Shown piece by piece: positions 17,534 through 21,252 of a DNA stretch of 51,200 bases. The stretch covers positions 1 through 51,200 of the forward strand of contig JAERIN010000007.1 in NCBI GenBank assembly GCA_016757515.1, written 5' to 3'. Position numbers and translations under genes: made by a program. The notes under the pieces were generated by a model. That model saw only the letters and a list, made by a program, of their open reading frames with translations. It had not been told where the DNA came from and did not search any database. Source of the DNA: Alphaproteobacteria bacterium (GTDB taxonomy: Bacteria; Pseudomonadota; Alphaproteobacteria; Micavibrionales; Micavibrionaceae). Each line of letters opens with the position of its first letter. Position 1 is the stretch's first letter.

Positions 17534-18313
17534 TTATGACAAATAATCGCGAGCCTTTGTGAACAGGGCGAAAAAGTTCGCCCGTGTGGCCTGCGCCAGC
17601 GCTTCCACGGATTCGCCCCGGATGTCGGCCAAGCACTGGGCCGTGTGGCGTATGAACGCTGGCTCGTTGCGCTCGCCCCGGTGCGGCACGGGCGCCAGGT
17701 ATGGCGAATCGGTTTCAATCAGTAAGCGATCCTCAGGCACCCAAGCCGCAATGTCGCGCAAAGCCTGGGCATTTTTGAAGGTGATGATGCCCGAAAACGC
17801 GATGTATAGACCCAGGTCCAGCGTTGCGCGCGCCAGGTCCGCAGAGCCTGTGAAGCAGTGCATGACGCCCCGTGGCGTGTCACGCCATGTGTCACTTTGT
17901 AGCAGCGATAGCGTGTCCTCTTCTGCGGCGCGGCTATGGATCACAAGCGGAAGTGATGCTTTAAGAGAAGCCTCTATGTGTTTGGCAAAAGAGATTTTTT
18001 GCGATTCTTTATTTGAATTTTTATAATAAAAATCCAGCCCTGTTTCTCCCACAGCTACCGCCTTTGGTGTACTCAAGAGACGCTGTAAAAGGGTGCCAGA
18101 ATCGGTGCAGTCTGTGTCAGCCGCGTGCGGGTGTGTGCCTAGTGCACACCATACGCCCTCATGCGCAACAGAAAAATCAACAATATCATCGGCTTCCTCA
18201 GTAAAGTTCGTGCAAATTGTGAGCATAGTGGACACCCCAGCTTCCCGTGCCTGCCTCACGGCAGCATCTGGGTTGTCCAGCATGGTCAGATGACAGTGCG
18301 AATCGGCGTACAT
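17534..18313 (-). CDS. tatD: TatD-family metal-dependent deoxyribonuclease
   Basis: 259 residues, the normal TatD length. The metal ligands are visible in order: [37 protein letters not shown] and LIETDSPYL. TatD proteins are 3'-5' exonucleases implicated in DNA repair and quality control. A GGGAGG ribosome-binding site and a -10-like TATAAG lie upstream. Codon use is more AT-rich around residues 105-120. It is divergent from gapR; their promoters overlap in a gap of about 45 bp. Confidence 0.9.
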
Positions 18314-18357: not shown

Positions 18358-18606
18358 ATGGAACAACACCACGACACGGCAACAGCCGCACGCCTGAAGA
18401 GCTATATTGAGCGCATCGAGCGCTTGGAGGAGGAAAAAGCTGGCCTGGCCGCAGACATAAAGGACGTCTATGCAGAGGCCAAAGGCGCGGGGTTTGACGG
18501 GCCGACCATCCGCAAAATTGTCTCCCTGCGCAAAAAGGACGACGCCAAGCGCGTGGAGGAGGACGCTCTTCTCAAGGCATACAAAGAGGCCATCGGCATG
18601 GTGTAG
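18358..18606 (+). CDS. gapR: GapR-family nucleoid-associated protein (DUF2312)
   Basis: 82 residues, the usual length. [15 protein letters not shown] and the following [15 protein letters not shown], then [11 protein letters not shown], match the GapR family closely. In Caulobacter, GapR forms clamps on overtwisted DNA ahead of replication and transcription and stimulates topoisomerases. It is almost confined to alphaproteobacteria, which supports the taxonomic call. The gene sits directly beside the parS cluster, 17 bp before the first site. Confidence 0.92.
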
Positions 18607-18622
18607 CCCTTCTGCCCAAAAG

Positions 18623-18638
18623 TGTTTCACGTGAAACA
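18623..18638. promoter_or_regulatory. parS centromere site 1 (perfect consensus)
   Basis: TGTTTCACGTGAAACA, identical to the consensus ParB-binding site. It is the core of a perfect 28-bp palindrome (18617-18644), so both flanks are also symmetrical. ParB loads here to organise and segregate the chromosome. Confidence 0.93.
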
Positions 18639-18647
18639 CTTTTGTGT

Positions 18648-18653
18648 TATACT
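18648..18653 (+). promoter_or_regulatory. -10 element of a leaderless gene beside parS
   Basis: TATACT ends 6 nt before the ATG at 18660. The -35 position (18625-18630, TTTCAC) falls inside parS site 1, so bound ParB should cover the promoter. The GGAGG at 18654-18658 is too close to the ATG to work as a ribosome-binding site. Confidence 0.5.
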
Positions 18654-18659
18654 GGAGGT

Positions 18660-18848
18660 ATGCTCCAAAAACGCACCCGCGTTGCGGTCTATGTCGGCGT
18701 AGGCTTGGCCCTTGCCGCCGCCGGGGGGGGTTCCCTCTTGGTCAGCCCCGGCCAGAACGCCCCCATGGCGGCCTCCGTTCGCGCCCTGTCTCAAGACACC
18801 GGCACCCTGGTGGACGACGTTATGGCAGACCTTGCGCATGACGCATAA
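18660..18848 (+). CDS. Small protein with N-terminal membrane/signal segment
   Basis: 62 residues. After a basic start (MLQKRTR) comes a hydrophobic stretch at about 8-27 (VAVYVGVGLALAAAGGGSLL), then a polar tail. It could be a membrane anchor or a cleaved signal peptide. I do not recognise the family. The gene lies 3 bp before the DHH phosphoesterase gene, so they form an operon, and its promoter overlaps parS site 1. Confidence 0.55.
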   Translation: MLQKRTRVAVYVGVGLALAAAGGGSLLVSPGQNAPMAASVRALSQDTGTLVDDVMADLAHDA

Positions 18849-18851
18849 TCC

Positions 18852-19823
18852 GTGGACACTGGACGCGTTGTGATCCCAGACCTTGACCCCGGACGCACCT
18901 ATCGCCTCCTCACGCGCAGTGACATGGACGGCATCGCCTGCGCGGCACTCCTGGCCGCTCGGAGCGCTGTGGAGTCCGTGTCTTTCGCCCACCCTAAGGA
19001 TGTCCGCGACGGCCTTGTGCCCGTGGAAGCCGGGGACATTATGGCCCACCTCCCGTACGTCCCCGGCGTGCACTTGGCCTTTGATAATAAACCCAGCGAC
19101 GTGGAGCGCTTGGGCCTGGCCCCCCGTCCTGCGCGCCTCGTCTGTGACGAGTCCGCCCCCAGCGCCGCACGCGTTGTGTGGGACCACTTCGGTGGAGCGT
19201 TCCCCGGCGTGGCCCCGGCCCTAGTGGCCGCCGCAGACCGTTTTTGTGCTGCAGACTTCGCCCGGGGGGAGATCCTGGAGCCCAGCGGTTGGGCCCTTTT
19301 GGCCACCATCGCGGACCCGCGCACAGGTTTGGGGCGCTTTAGACACTTTACAGTCTCTAACTACCGTCTGATGGAGCGCTTGGTGGGGCTGGCTGCGGCG
19401 CACAGTGAACGGGTGGAGACCATCCTGGCAGACCCGGATATGCGCGAGCGCGTGACGTTCCTCTGGGATCACCGCGCGGACTTTGAGGCCCAGATTCGCC
19501 GCTGCACCCGTCTCCACCCCGGGGGCCTTGGGGTGTTGGACCTGCGCGGTGAGGAGGTCATTTGGCCGGGCTCGCGTTTTGCGCTCTACGCCCTCCTGCC
19601 GGAAATACGGGTCTCGTGCCATGTCTTCTGGGGCCGGAATCGTCAGAATACCGTGTTTGCCCTGGGGCGCTCTCTCTTCCAGGCCAAGGCGAACGATGTG
19701 GACCTGGGGGCCCTGTGCCTGGAGCACGGCGGAGACGGCGCGCCGGGCGCGGGGACATGCCAGGTGGACAACGCCCACGCGGAGGAGGTCTTGGCCAATT
19801 TTGTTATATGCCTGTCCGCGTGA
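18852..19823 (+). CDS. DHH-family phosphoesterase (exopolyphosphatase-like)
   Basis: 323 residues starting at GTG. LLTRSDMDGIACAALL is the N-terminal DHH-type metal motif, and VCDESAPSAARVVWDH is the later metal-binding motif. The C-terminal FALGRSLFQ, then NVDLG-like and HGGDGAPGAGTCQV, correspond to the DHHA1 glycine-rich substrate loop. Related proteins are annotated as exopolyphosphatase or as nanoRNA/pAp phosphatase; the substrate cannot be decided from sequence. The gene lies between parS sites 1 and 2; its stop codon ends 2 bp before site 2. Confidence 0.75.
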   Translation: MDTGRVVIPDLDPGRTYRLLTRSDMDGIACAALLAARSAVESVSFAHPKDVRDGLVPVEAGDIMAHLPYVPGVHLAFDNKPSDVERLGLAPRPARLVCDESAPSAARVVWDHFGGAFPGVAPALVAAADRFCAADFARGEILEPSGWALLATIADPRTGLGRFRHFTVSNYRLMERLVGLAAAHSERVETILADPDMRERVTFLWDHRADFEAQIRRCTRLHPGGLGVLDLRGEEVIWPGSRFALYALLPEIRVSCHVFWGRNRQNTVFALGRSLFQAKANDVDLGALCLEHGGDGAPGAGTCQVDNAHAEEVLANFVICLSA

Positions 19824-19825
19824 GG

Positions 19826-19841
19826 TGTTTCACGTGAAACG
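19826..19841. promoter_or_regulatory. parS centromere site 2 (15/16 match)
   Basis: TGTTTCACGTGAAACG, one mismatch at the last base of the consensus. It begins 2 bp after the DHH gene's stop codon. Confidence 0.88.
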
Positions 19842-19916
19842 CGCGCGCGCCTCACCCCGCCGAAAGGTGAGATCGGGGCATGCTTTCTTTCGCCGGGGGG
19901 CGAGCCGTTCGCAAAG

Positions 19917-19932
19917 TGGTTCACGTGAAACA
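19917..19932. promoter_or_regulatory. parS centromere site 3 (15/16 match)
   Basis: TGGTTCACGTGAAACA, one mismatch at position 3. The flanks AAAG and CTTTT extend the symmetry, as at site 1. It lies 97 bp before the hemA start. Confidence 0.88.
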
Positions 19933-20028: not shown

Positions 20029-21252
20029 ATGGCCTGCGATAAATATTTCACAGATTATCTGGCCGCGCTGAAGGCCGAGGGGCGCTACCGCCGCTTTGCG
20101 ACTCTGGAGCGGGTGGTGGGCCGATTCCCTCGGGCCCTGTTGCACGAAGACAGCTCCACGCGGGAGGTCACCGTCTGGTGCTCCAACGATTACCTAGGCA
20201 TGGGGCAGAACACCAAGGTCATCGCCGCAGCGCGGGAAGCCCTGGAGCGGAGCGGCGCGGGGGCCGGCGGCACGCGGAATATTTCTGGCACCATGCGCCA
20301 CCATGTGGACCTGGAGCGCACTGTGGCAGCGCTGCACGGCAAGGCTGCGGCTCTTGTTTTTTCAAGCGGATATGTGGCGAACGAGGGAGCCCTGGCCGCT
20401 CTGGGCCGCCTCCTGCCCGGCTGCATAATGTTCTCTGACGCCGGGAACCACGCCTCCATGATCCACGGCATCCGCGATTCAGGCTGCGCAAAGCAGATAT
20501 TCCGCCACAACGACATGGCCCATTTGGCGGCCCTGCTGGCTGCCGCGCCCGTGAACGCGCCTAAGATCGTGGCGTGCGAGAGCGTGTACTCCATGGACGG
20601 GGACATCGCCCCCCTGGCCGAGGTTGCGGCGCTGGCCCGGCACTATGGGGCCCTGACCTATCTGGATGAGGTGCACGCTGTGGGTATCTACGGCCCTGGC
20701 GGGGCGGGCGTCGCGTCGCGGGATGGCGCCACATTTGACGTGATTGAGGGCACCTTCGGCAAGGCCTACGGCGCGCAAGGGGGCTATATTGCGGGCTCTG
20801 AGGTCCTGGTGGACGCCGTGCGCAGCGCGGCCGGGCCGTTTATCTTCACGACCTCCCTGCCCCCAGCGACCCTGGCCGCTGCGCGGGCCGCTGTGGAGCA
20901 CTTACAGCAAAGCGGTACAGAGCGAGAGCGCCTCTGGACCAACGTGGTCCGGCTGAAGGCGGGCCTGCGCGCTGCGGGCCTGCCTTTCATGGACGGGCCA
21001 AGCCATATTGTCCCCCTCATCGTGGGAGAGCCAAACTGCTGCCGCGCAGTGACAGACCGTCTCTTGGGCGAGCACGGGATATACGTCCAGCCCATCAACT
21101 ACCCCACCGTGCCCAGGGGTACGGAGCGCCTGCGCCTCACGGCCACTGCGGCGCACAAAGCTGCAGACGTAGACGCCCTGGTGGCCGCCCTGGCAGACCT
21201 ATGGCGCAGCGAGCATATCCCTGCTGCCTGCCACCGACAGGCCCACGGGTGA
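20029..21252 (+). CDS. hemA: 5-aminolevulinate synthase
   Basis: 407 residues. It condenses glycine and succinyl-CoA to 5-aminolevulinate, the C4 entry to haem typical of alphaproteobacteria. The PLP lysine is K245 in [16 protein letters not shown], close to K248 of the Rhodobacter enzyme; [25 protein letters not shown] and [15 protein letters not shown] are other family motifs. I took the ATG at 20029 because the ALAS fold begins there and a perfect-looking -10, TATACT (20017-20022), ends 6 nt before it. Glycine C-acetyltransferase is a less likely relative. Confidence 0.92.

Follow-up and report, generated by a model that had tools for sequence, protein, structure and literature searches.

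Chromosome segregation by ParABS depends on ParB, which nucleates on parS and spreads from it as a clamp, and extra parS clusters draw ParB and may harm segregation unless they lie near the native cluster (PMC5815017, PMC7614844). We describe here three parS sites between gapR and hemA in a 51,200-base stretch of DNA from an alphaproteobacterium of the family Micavibrionaceae (contig JAERIN010000007.1 of assembly GCA_016757515.1, a complete contig, hereafter the window). The sites share with the chromosomal alphaproteobacterial system its 16-bp palindrome, TGTTTCACGTGAAACA, a chromosomal ParA and ParB, and a main cluster in the mnmE-mnmG-rsmG-parAB region, but they differ from it in forming a second cluster, separated from parAB by 87 kb or more, in the AAAG arms that two of them carry, and in belonging to a genome whose ParB has a serine at the position of Gly201. 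We favor, at a probability of about 0.68, a reading in which they are genuine ParB nucleation sites that add an accessory cluster to the main one, the parS/ParB interface of this lineage having probably drifted.

Three further described systems invite comparison. In Pseudomonas aeruginosa, six of ten parS sites are dispersed and likewise lie away from the oriC cluster, but each of these has two mismatches (PMC4368675), whereas here one perfect and two single-mismatch sites are grouped together. In Caulobacter, also an alphaproteobacterium, an ectopic cluster of ParB sites has been engineered in addition to the native one on the same chromosome, as described in PMC5815017, in contrast to the natural occurrence of the window cluster. 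Finally, the nucleoid occlusion pair Noc/NBS involves a paralogous protein family and a related 16-bp site, with residue 201 presented as a specificity residue (PMC7383237). We considered membership in this class and rejected it: the present ParB keeps the Arg173 equivalent and has a serine at that of 201, unlike the Gln173/Arg201 pair of Noc, and no site within two mismatches of NBS was found in the 269 kb read of the 1.75-Mb genome.

A Second parS Cluster in the Genome

The three sites (16/16, 15/16 and 15/16 identical to the 16-mer, and thus within the one to two mismatches that we allowed) are the only window matches to TGTTTCACGTGAAACA at up to three mismatches, and shuffled sequences yielded a mean of 0.09 matches and in 0 of 100 cases reached three. 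They are real and far above chance expectation. Coordinates and shuffles thereby bear out the original prediction, made from the letters of the window, of one perfect and two near-perfect copies within 1.3 kb, the first of them embedded in a 28-bp palindrome, which we read as perfect (Table 1). The same prediction had assigned one site to each intergenic region, and here it needs correction, as only two gaps are involved: that between gapR and a 62-residue open reading frame (ORF) holds site 1, and that between the 18852-19823 gene and hemA holds sites 2 and 3, 91 bp apart. An intrinsic terminator, with a GC-rich stem followed by a T run, was considered for the 28-bp palindrome and set aside, as no terminator-like call was obtained at any of the three sites; RNA folding at site 1 gave -15.4 kcal/mol (z -2.6).

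Across the assembly (90 contigs, 98.94% complete, 1.44% contaminated), a search for TGTTTCACGTGAAACA at up to two mismatches returned 14 sites, against 0 for the reversed pattern. Contig C1 holds seven of them (68285-72566) and the window three; two more are on C4, and C56 and C20 have a single one each. The sole ParB_N match of the genome lies at C1:73469, immediately after the C1 sites, and the protein aligns with a solved ParB at E 1.3e-61; the window sites are hence a second parS cluster, the main one being the seven sites beside parB, and parAB are, as anticipated, absent from the window. We take the ORF order on C1 to be mnmE, mnmG, rsmG, parA and parB, names assigned from the sequences, with ParB alone confirmed by matches and the ORF immediately upstream of parB presumably encoding ParA. 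SMC_N matches are found on C35 and C11, and dnaA on C7. The best identities of this genome's MnmG to its matches are about 65%, and these come mostly from Micavibrio-like or alphaproteobacterial metagenome-assembled genomes, with some from Inquilinus, Rhodospirillaceae and Defluviicoccus. Among the genomes compared, no other belongs to its genus.

A further off-cluster pair is present in an intergenic gap of C4, where a perfect site (C4:16527) and a two-mismatch copy (C4:16554) lie 27 bp apart (L017:9527-9569). The sites C56:2299 (one mismatch) and C20:3995 (two mismatches) are probably chance matches; both are inside called ORFs and devoid of AAAG arms.

AAAG Arms Link Window Sites to the parB Locus

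The tetranucleotide AAAG directly adjoins one or both ends of the 16-mer at 10 of the 11 sites with zero or one mismatch on C1 (7/7), on C4 (1/1) and in the window (2/3), relative to a background of 0.7% of positions (binomial P about 5e-21, with sites assumed independent and post hoc, the arms having been noticed first and tested afterwards). With the armless C56 site the count becomes 10 of 12, and the two-mismatch C4:16554 also stands outside it. Through the arms that they share with C1, window sites 1 and 3 are linked to the sites of the parB locus. The earlier assignment of the three sites to the ParB-site kind was right. At the main (mnmG) loci of relatives such an arm accompanies 1 of 207 sites, distributed over the 72 site-holding loci of 80. 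Arms on both sides occur only at window sites 1 and 3 in the 269 kb read, where site 1 is also the sole zero-mismatch match to AAAG-parS-CTTT. In our preferred reading, the 28-bp palindrome represents an extended parS in its complete form, which would be feasible in intergenic DNA and appears half-realized at the mostly coding C1 sites. Among the papers listed in searches of the open-licence PMC literature, judged by titles and the beginnings of abstracts, none reports this parS cluster or such arms.

Shared arms could also arise if the sites were copies of each other, as functionless parS repeats that are decaying or were copied passively. The sites do appear lineage-specific, two have lost one base and one is armless, and a relative with many sites, G059, has a repeated AAA flank of its own. 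Several C1 sites are nevertheless inside coding sequence, and for the site located at MnmG codon 398, 40 matches in relatives carry a counterpart; the six of their flanks that were inspected are all unlike the arm seen here, suggesting that the arm was probably altered in place rather than copied along with the site; we consider passive copying improbable. The arms bear likewise on the notion that the cluster reflects chance or an assembly artifact: although the genome is a draft in 90 contigs, arms in common with its own C1 and C4 sites bind the window contig to it, and in view of the shuffle control this notion deserves hardly any weight.

Substitutions at the ParB-parS Interface

We aligned the C1 ParB (L016:13379-14242) with the ParB proteins of 71 relatives, obtained from 80 loci of which the rest offered no long enough match. 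At its Ser185, 71 of 71 have glycine, at its Arg155, 70 of 71 have lysine, and at its Ala146, 54 of 71 have glutamine. By motif alignment to the solved ParB and the numbering of PMC7383237, these positions are G201, K171 and Q162 of Caulobacter ParB, all three named there as parS-contacting residues, with the glycine at 201 reported as absolutely conserved in ParB orthologues. Serine at 201 was tolerated for parS binding in a published one-hybrid screen and was common among dual-specificity variants. The Ser185 codon, TCC, is at least two changes away from any glycine codon, making a single base error unlikely, and none of the 72 proteins compared (the 71 and that of G059) has as many as three contact changes. 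The best reading of these comparisons is that the parS/ParB interface of the lineage has drifted.

A causal connection between arms and ParB is a separate matter, and two observations speak against it. Enrichment of ParB changes at contact columns is weak (Fisher 0.046 for columns at least 95% conserved, 0.12 at 90%), and G059 combines A-rich arms with unchanged contact residues, so that arms do not require a change in ParB. We entertain only tentatively, and with the odds against it, a stronger proposal of a naturally re-tuned centromere, in which G201S, K171R and Q162A would accompany the growth of parS from 16 to 24-28 bp through AAAG arms and a second cluster at gapR would hold the sole fully symmetric extended sites read, providing a natural example of an intermediate thought unused.

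Position Relative to the Origin

Contig geometry places the window sites at least 86.9 kb from the C1 cluster (68.3 + 18.6 kb), a lower bound. The original prediction had located the window in the origin-proximal part of the chromosome, a placement that may hold but that we could not support: the main cluster lies with parAB on a different contig, no less than 87 kb distant, and gene order gives no guidance. It had also proposed a genome-wide search for the 16-mer and a look at GC skew, naming many parS copies far from the window as an outcome that would speak against it. The search goes some way in that direction with its seven-site cluster elsewhere, and the skew provides no placement of the origin, as on C1 it never exceeds +/-0.062, shows no switch at parABS and hence cannot reveal the origin of this genome. 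A scan for DnaA boxes over C1, C4, the window and part of C7 detected no cluster.

Two relatives are more informative. In G022, assembled as one contig, sign changes of the sampled skew occur near 0/2.46 Mb and in the interval 1.22-1.32 Mb, with parB at 21 kb. In G023, whose chromosome is near-complete, the sampled skew is lowest in the interval 1.86-1.99 Mb, which also contains parB (1.928 Mb). These coincidences indicate that parABS is origin-proximal in both. G023 also carries two perfect off-cluster sites, C1:312429 and C1:901896 of its own assembly, both intergenic (L165:4030, L166:3997) and both with GTTCACGATATGTTTCACGTGAAACATTTT, in opposite orientations. With its 2.13-Mb main contig taken as the whole circle, they would lie mid-arm and near the terminus (skew maximum), respectively, and a parS copy alone is thus no origin marker in the family. 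Seven orthologue matches of window genes in the sampled stretches of G022 and G023 map to 0.40-0.81 of the origin-to-terminus distance, and C1 genes, which served as the positive control, show just as wide a scatter (13 and 15 matches, means 0.55 and 0.42), which leaves this synteny test powerless for placing the window.

An origin-proximal window, in which the cluster would simply be an outlier of the parS array at the origin, concerns location only and is compatible with an accessory cluster. In Caulobacter, according to PMC5815017, tolerance of a second cluster is best in a zone of about 500 kb around the native cluster, a range that makes origin-side placement of the window sites quite possible, and a distance of 87 kb is compatible with it. 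Against this stand the status of that distance as a lower bound, the silence of gene order, and the mid-arm and terminus-side sites of G023; we regard the idea as plausible, if somewhat short of even odds.

Off-Cluster parS Sites Among Relatives

When the locations of parS (zero or one mismatch) and parB were compared across 60 family relatives, parS sites were present in 55. They include 134 within 30 kb of parB and 32 elsewhere, the latter in 16 genomes; six more, in G028 (weak parB match only) and G060 (parB not found), have no place relative to parB in this tally. Seven of the 60 genomes carry perfect sites that are not near parB, and none of the 60 has a convincing second cluster. The sole other off-parB pair (G015:C53) was rejected as one: it is on a separate contig, but its spacing resembles that of pairs on the mnmG/rsmG side and suggests a split main locus. 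Context was fetched for perfect off-cluster sites other than G020:C423 and G041:C79: six (two each in G018, G023 and G059) lie between genes and have a run of A next to the 16-mer, and G015:C282 and G047 have no such run. The intergenic perfect sites of these three relatives count in favor of an accessory cluster in the window.

An orthologue of the 18852-19823 gene exists in 54 of the 60 relatives, and its neighborhood was read in 48, the other six being judged by contig (parS on other contigs or absent). In G059, of another genus, a perfect parS (G059:C143:24242; L095:8243) occupies the gap between two convergent ORFs, with the orthologue about 0.75 kb distant. Single-mismatch sites are also seen inside similar ORFs (LILIALGANLPS) of two genomes of one genus (L178:4036, L181:4022), ORFs that are presumably folK-like, and, on the parB contig of members of two genera, inside ORFs with like starts (FNLGGPDSRETI; L176:18609, L179:19272) that are presumably hemH-like.

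Gene Context and Possible Local Regulation

Features around the sites are collected in Table 1. Genes near the sites with family matches are mostly housekeeping, and we do not favor a mobile element or an integrated plasmid as the setting of the cluster. The adjacent gene is indeed gapR, as originally noted, although the NCBIfam equivalog model for GapR scores it below the model cut-off. The product of the 18852-19823 gene is tentatively labelled 'DHH-like', a label with no Pfam or NCBIfam match behind it. Toward the contig end (47000-51200), GC content falls to about 0.39-0.50 from about 0.6-0.7 elsewhere, and the ORFs there are presumably glycosyl/polysaccharide-like.

Table 1. Features of the gapR-hemA region (window coordinates)
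Feature	Position	Strand	Basis and remarks
TatD family nuclease	17534-18313	-	TIGR00010, 259 bits
gapR, nucleoid-associated protein GapR	18358-18606	+	Pfam PF10073 (GapR_DNA-bd) E 1.2e-30; NCBIfam PRK13694 above cut-off
Extended parS, perfect 28-bp palindrome	18617-18644	no strand	CAAAAG-parS-CTTTTG = CAAAAGTGTTTCACGTGAAACACTTTTG; core is site 1
parS site 1	18623-18638	no strand	16/16 to TGTTTCACGTGAAACA
Promoter-like TTCACG-16-TATACT	18626-18653	+	consensus match only; overlaps parS site 1
Small ORF, 62 aa	18660-18848	+	open reading frame; no family match
Conserved 323-aa protein	18852-19823	+	in 55/61 family genomes; no Pfam or NCBIfam match
parS site 2	19826-19841	no strand	15/16; begins 3 bases past preceding stop codon; no AAAG arms
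parS site 3	19917-19932	no strand	15/16; AAAG arms on both sides
hemA, 5-aminolevulinate synthase	20029-21252 (scanned from 20032)	+	TIGR01821, 567 bits; start codon checked

This arrangement raises the question of whether the cluster is mainly a regulatory operator, at which ParB would repress or tune gapR, the small ORF, the 18852 gene and hemA with no role in segregation. A promoter-like sequence immediately precedes the small ORF, and its -35-like hexamer is overlapped by site 1; sites 2 and 3 occupy the gap preceding hemA, and ParB of P. aeruginosa is described as repressing genes adjoining parS3 and parS4 (PMC5521831). The promoter is nonetheless a consensus match in a GC-rich alphaproteobacterium, one of two found in a 2.6-kb region where 0.6 would be expected by chance, and the arrangement is not conserved in relatives; a mainly regulatory role strikes us as quite improbable.

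Discussion

Under the favored interpretation of a second, accessory cluster, the single chromosomal ParB encoded on C1 would most likely recognize the extended parS, 16-mer and AAAG arms together, and load as a sliding clamp at the gapR-hemA segment, which would add a second ParB domain and a second entry point for SMC. By analogy with Caulobacter, such a cluster would be tolerated best if the segment were near the main one, and local regulation of the gapR-hemA stretch may be a side effect. Several points weigh against this interpretation. Site 2 is armless, and the cluster is not conserved, with parS within a few kilobases of the 18852-19823 orthologue in 1 of 54 relatives (G059). Extra off-cluster parS are reported to harm Caulobacter and Bacillus subtilis (PMC5815017, PMC7614844), and the dispersed sites of P. 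aeruginosa, as PMC4368675 describes them, cannot replace those at oriC, so that the window cluster could be inert.

ParB and parS are among the most conserved protein-DNA pairs of bacteria. A second cluster of natural origin bears on the question of where extra parS sites are tolerated, and in combination with a changed ParB interface residue and a lineage-specific extended site it would offer a direct test both of the co-evolution of this pair and of whether a chromosome can use two ParB domains. Even if the cluster alone is real, it still shows, together with the sites of G023, that a parS copy by itself does not locate the origin in this family.
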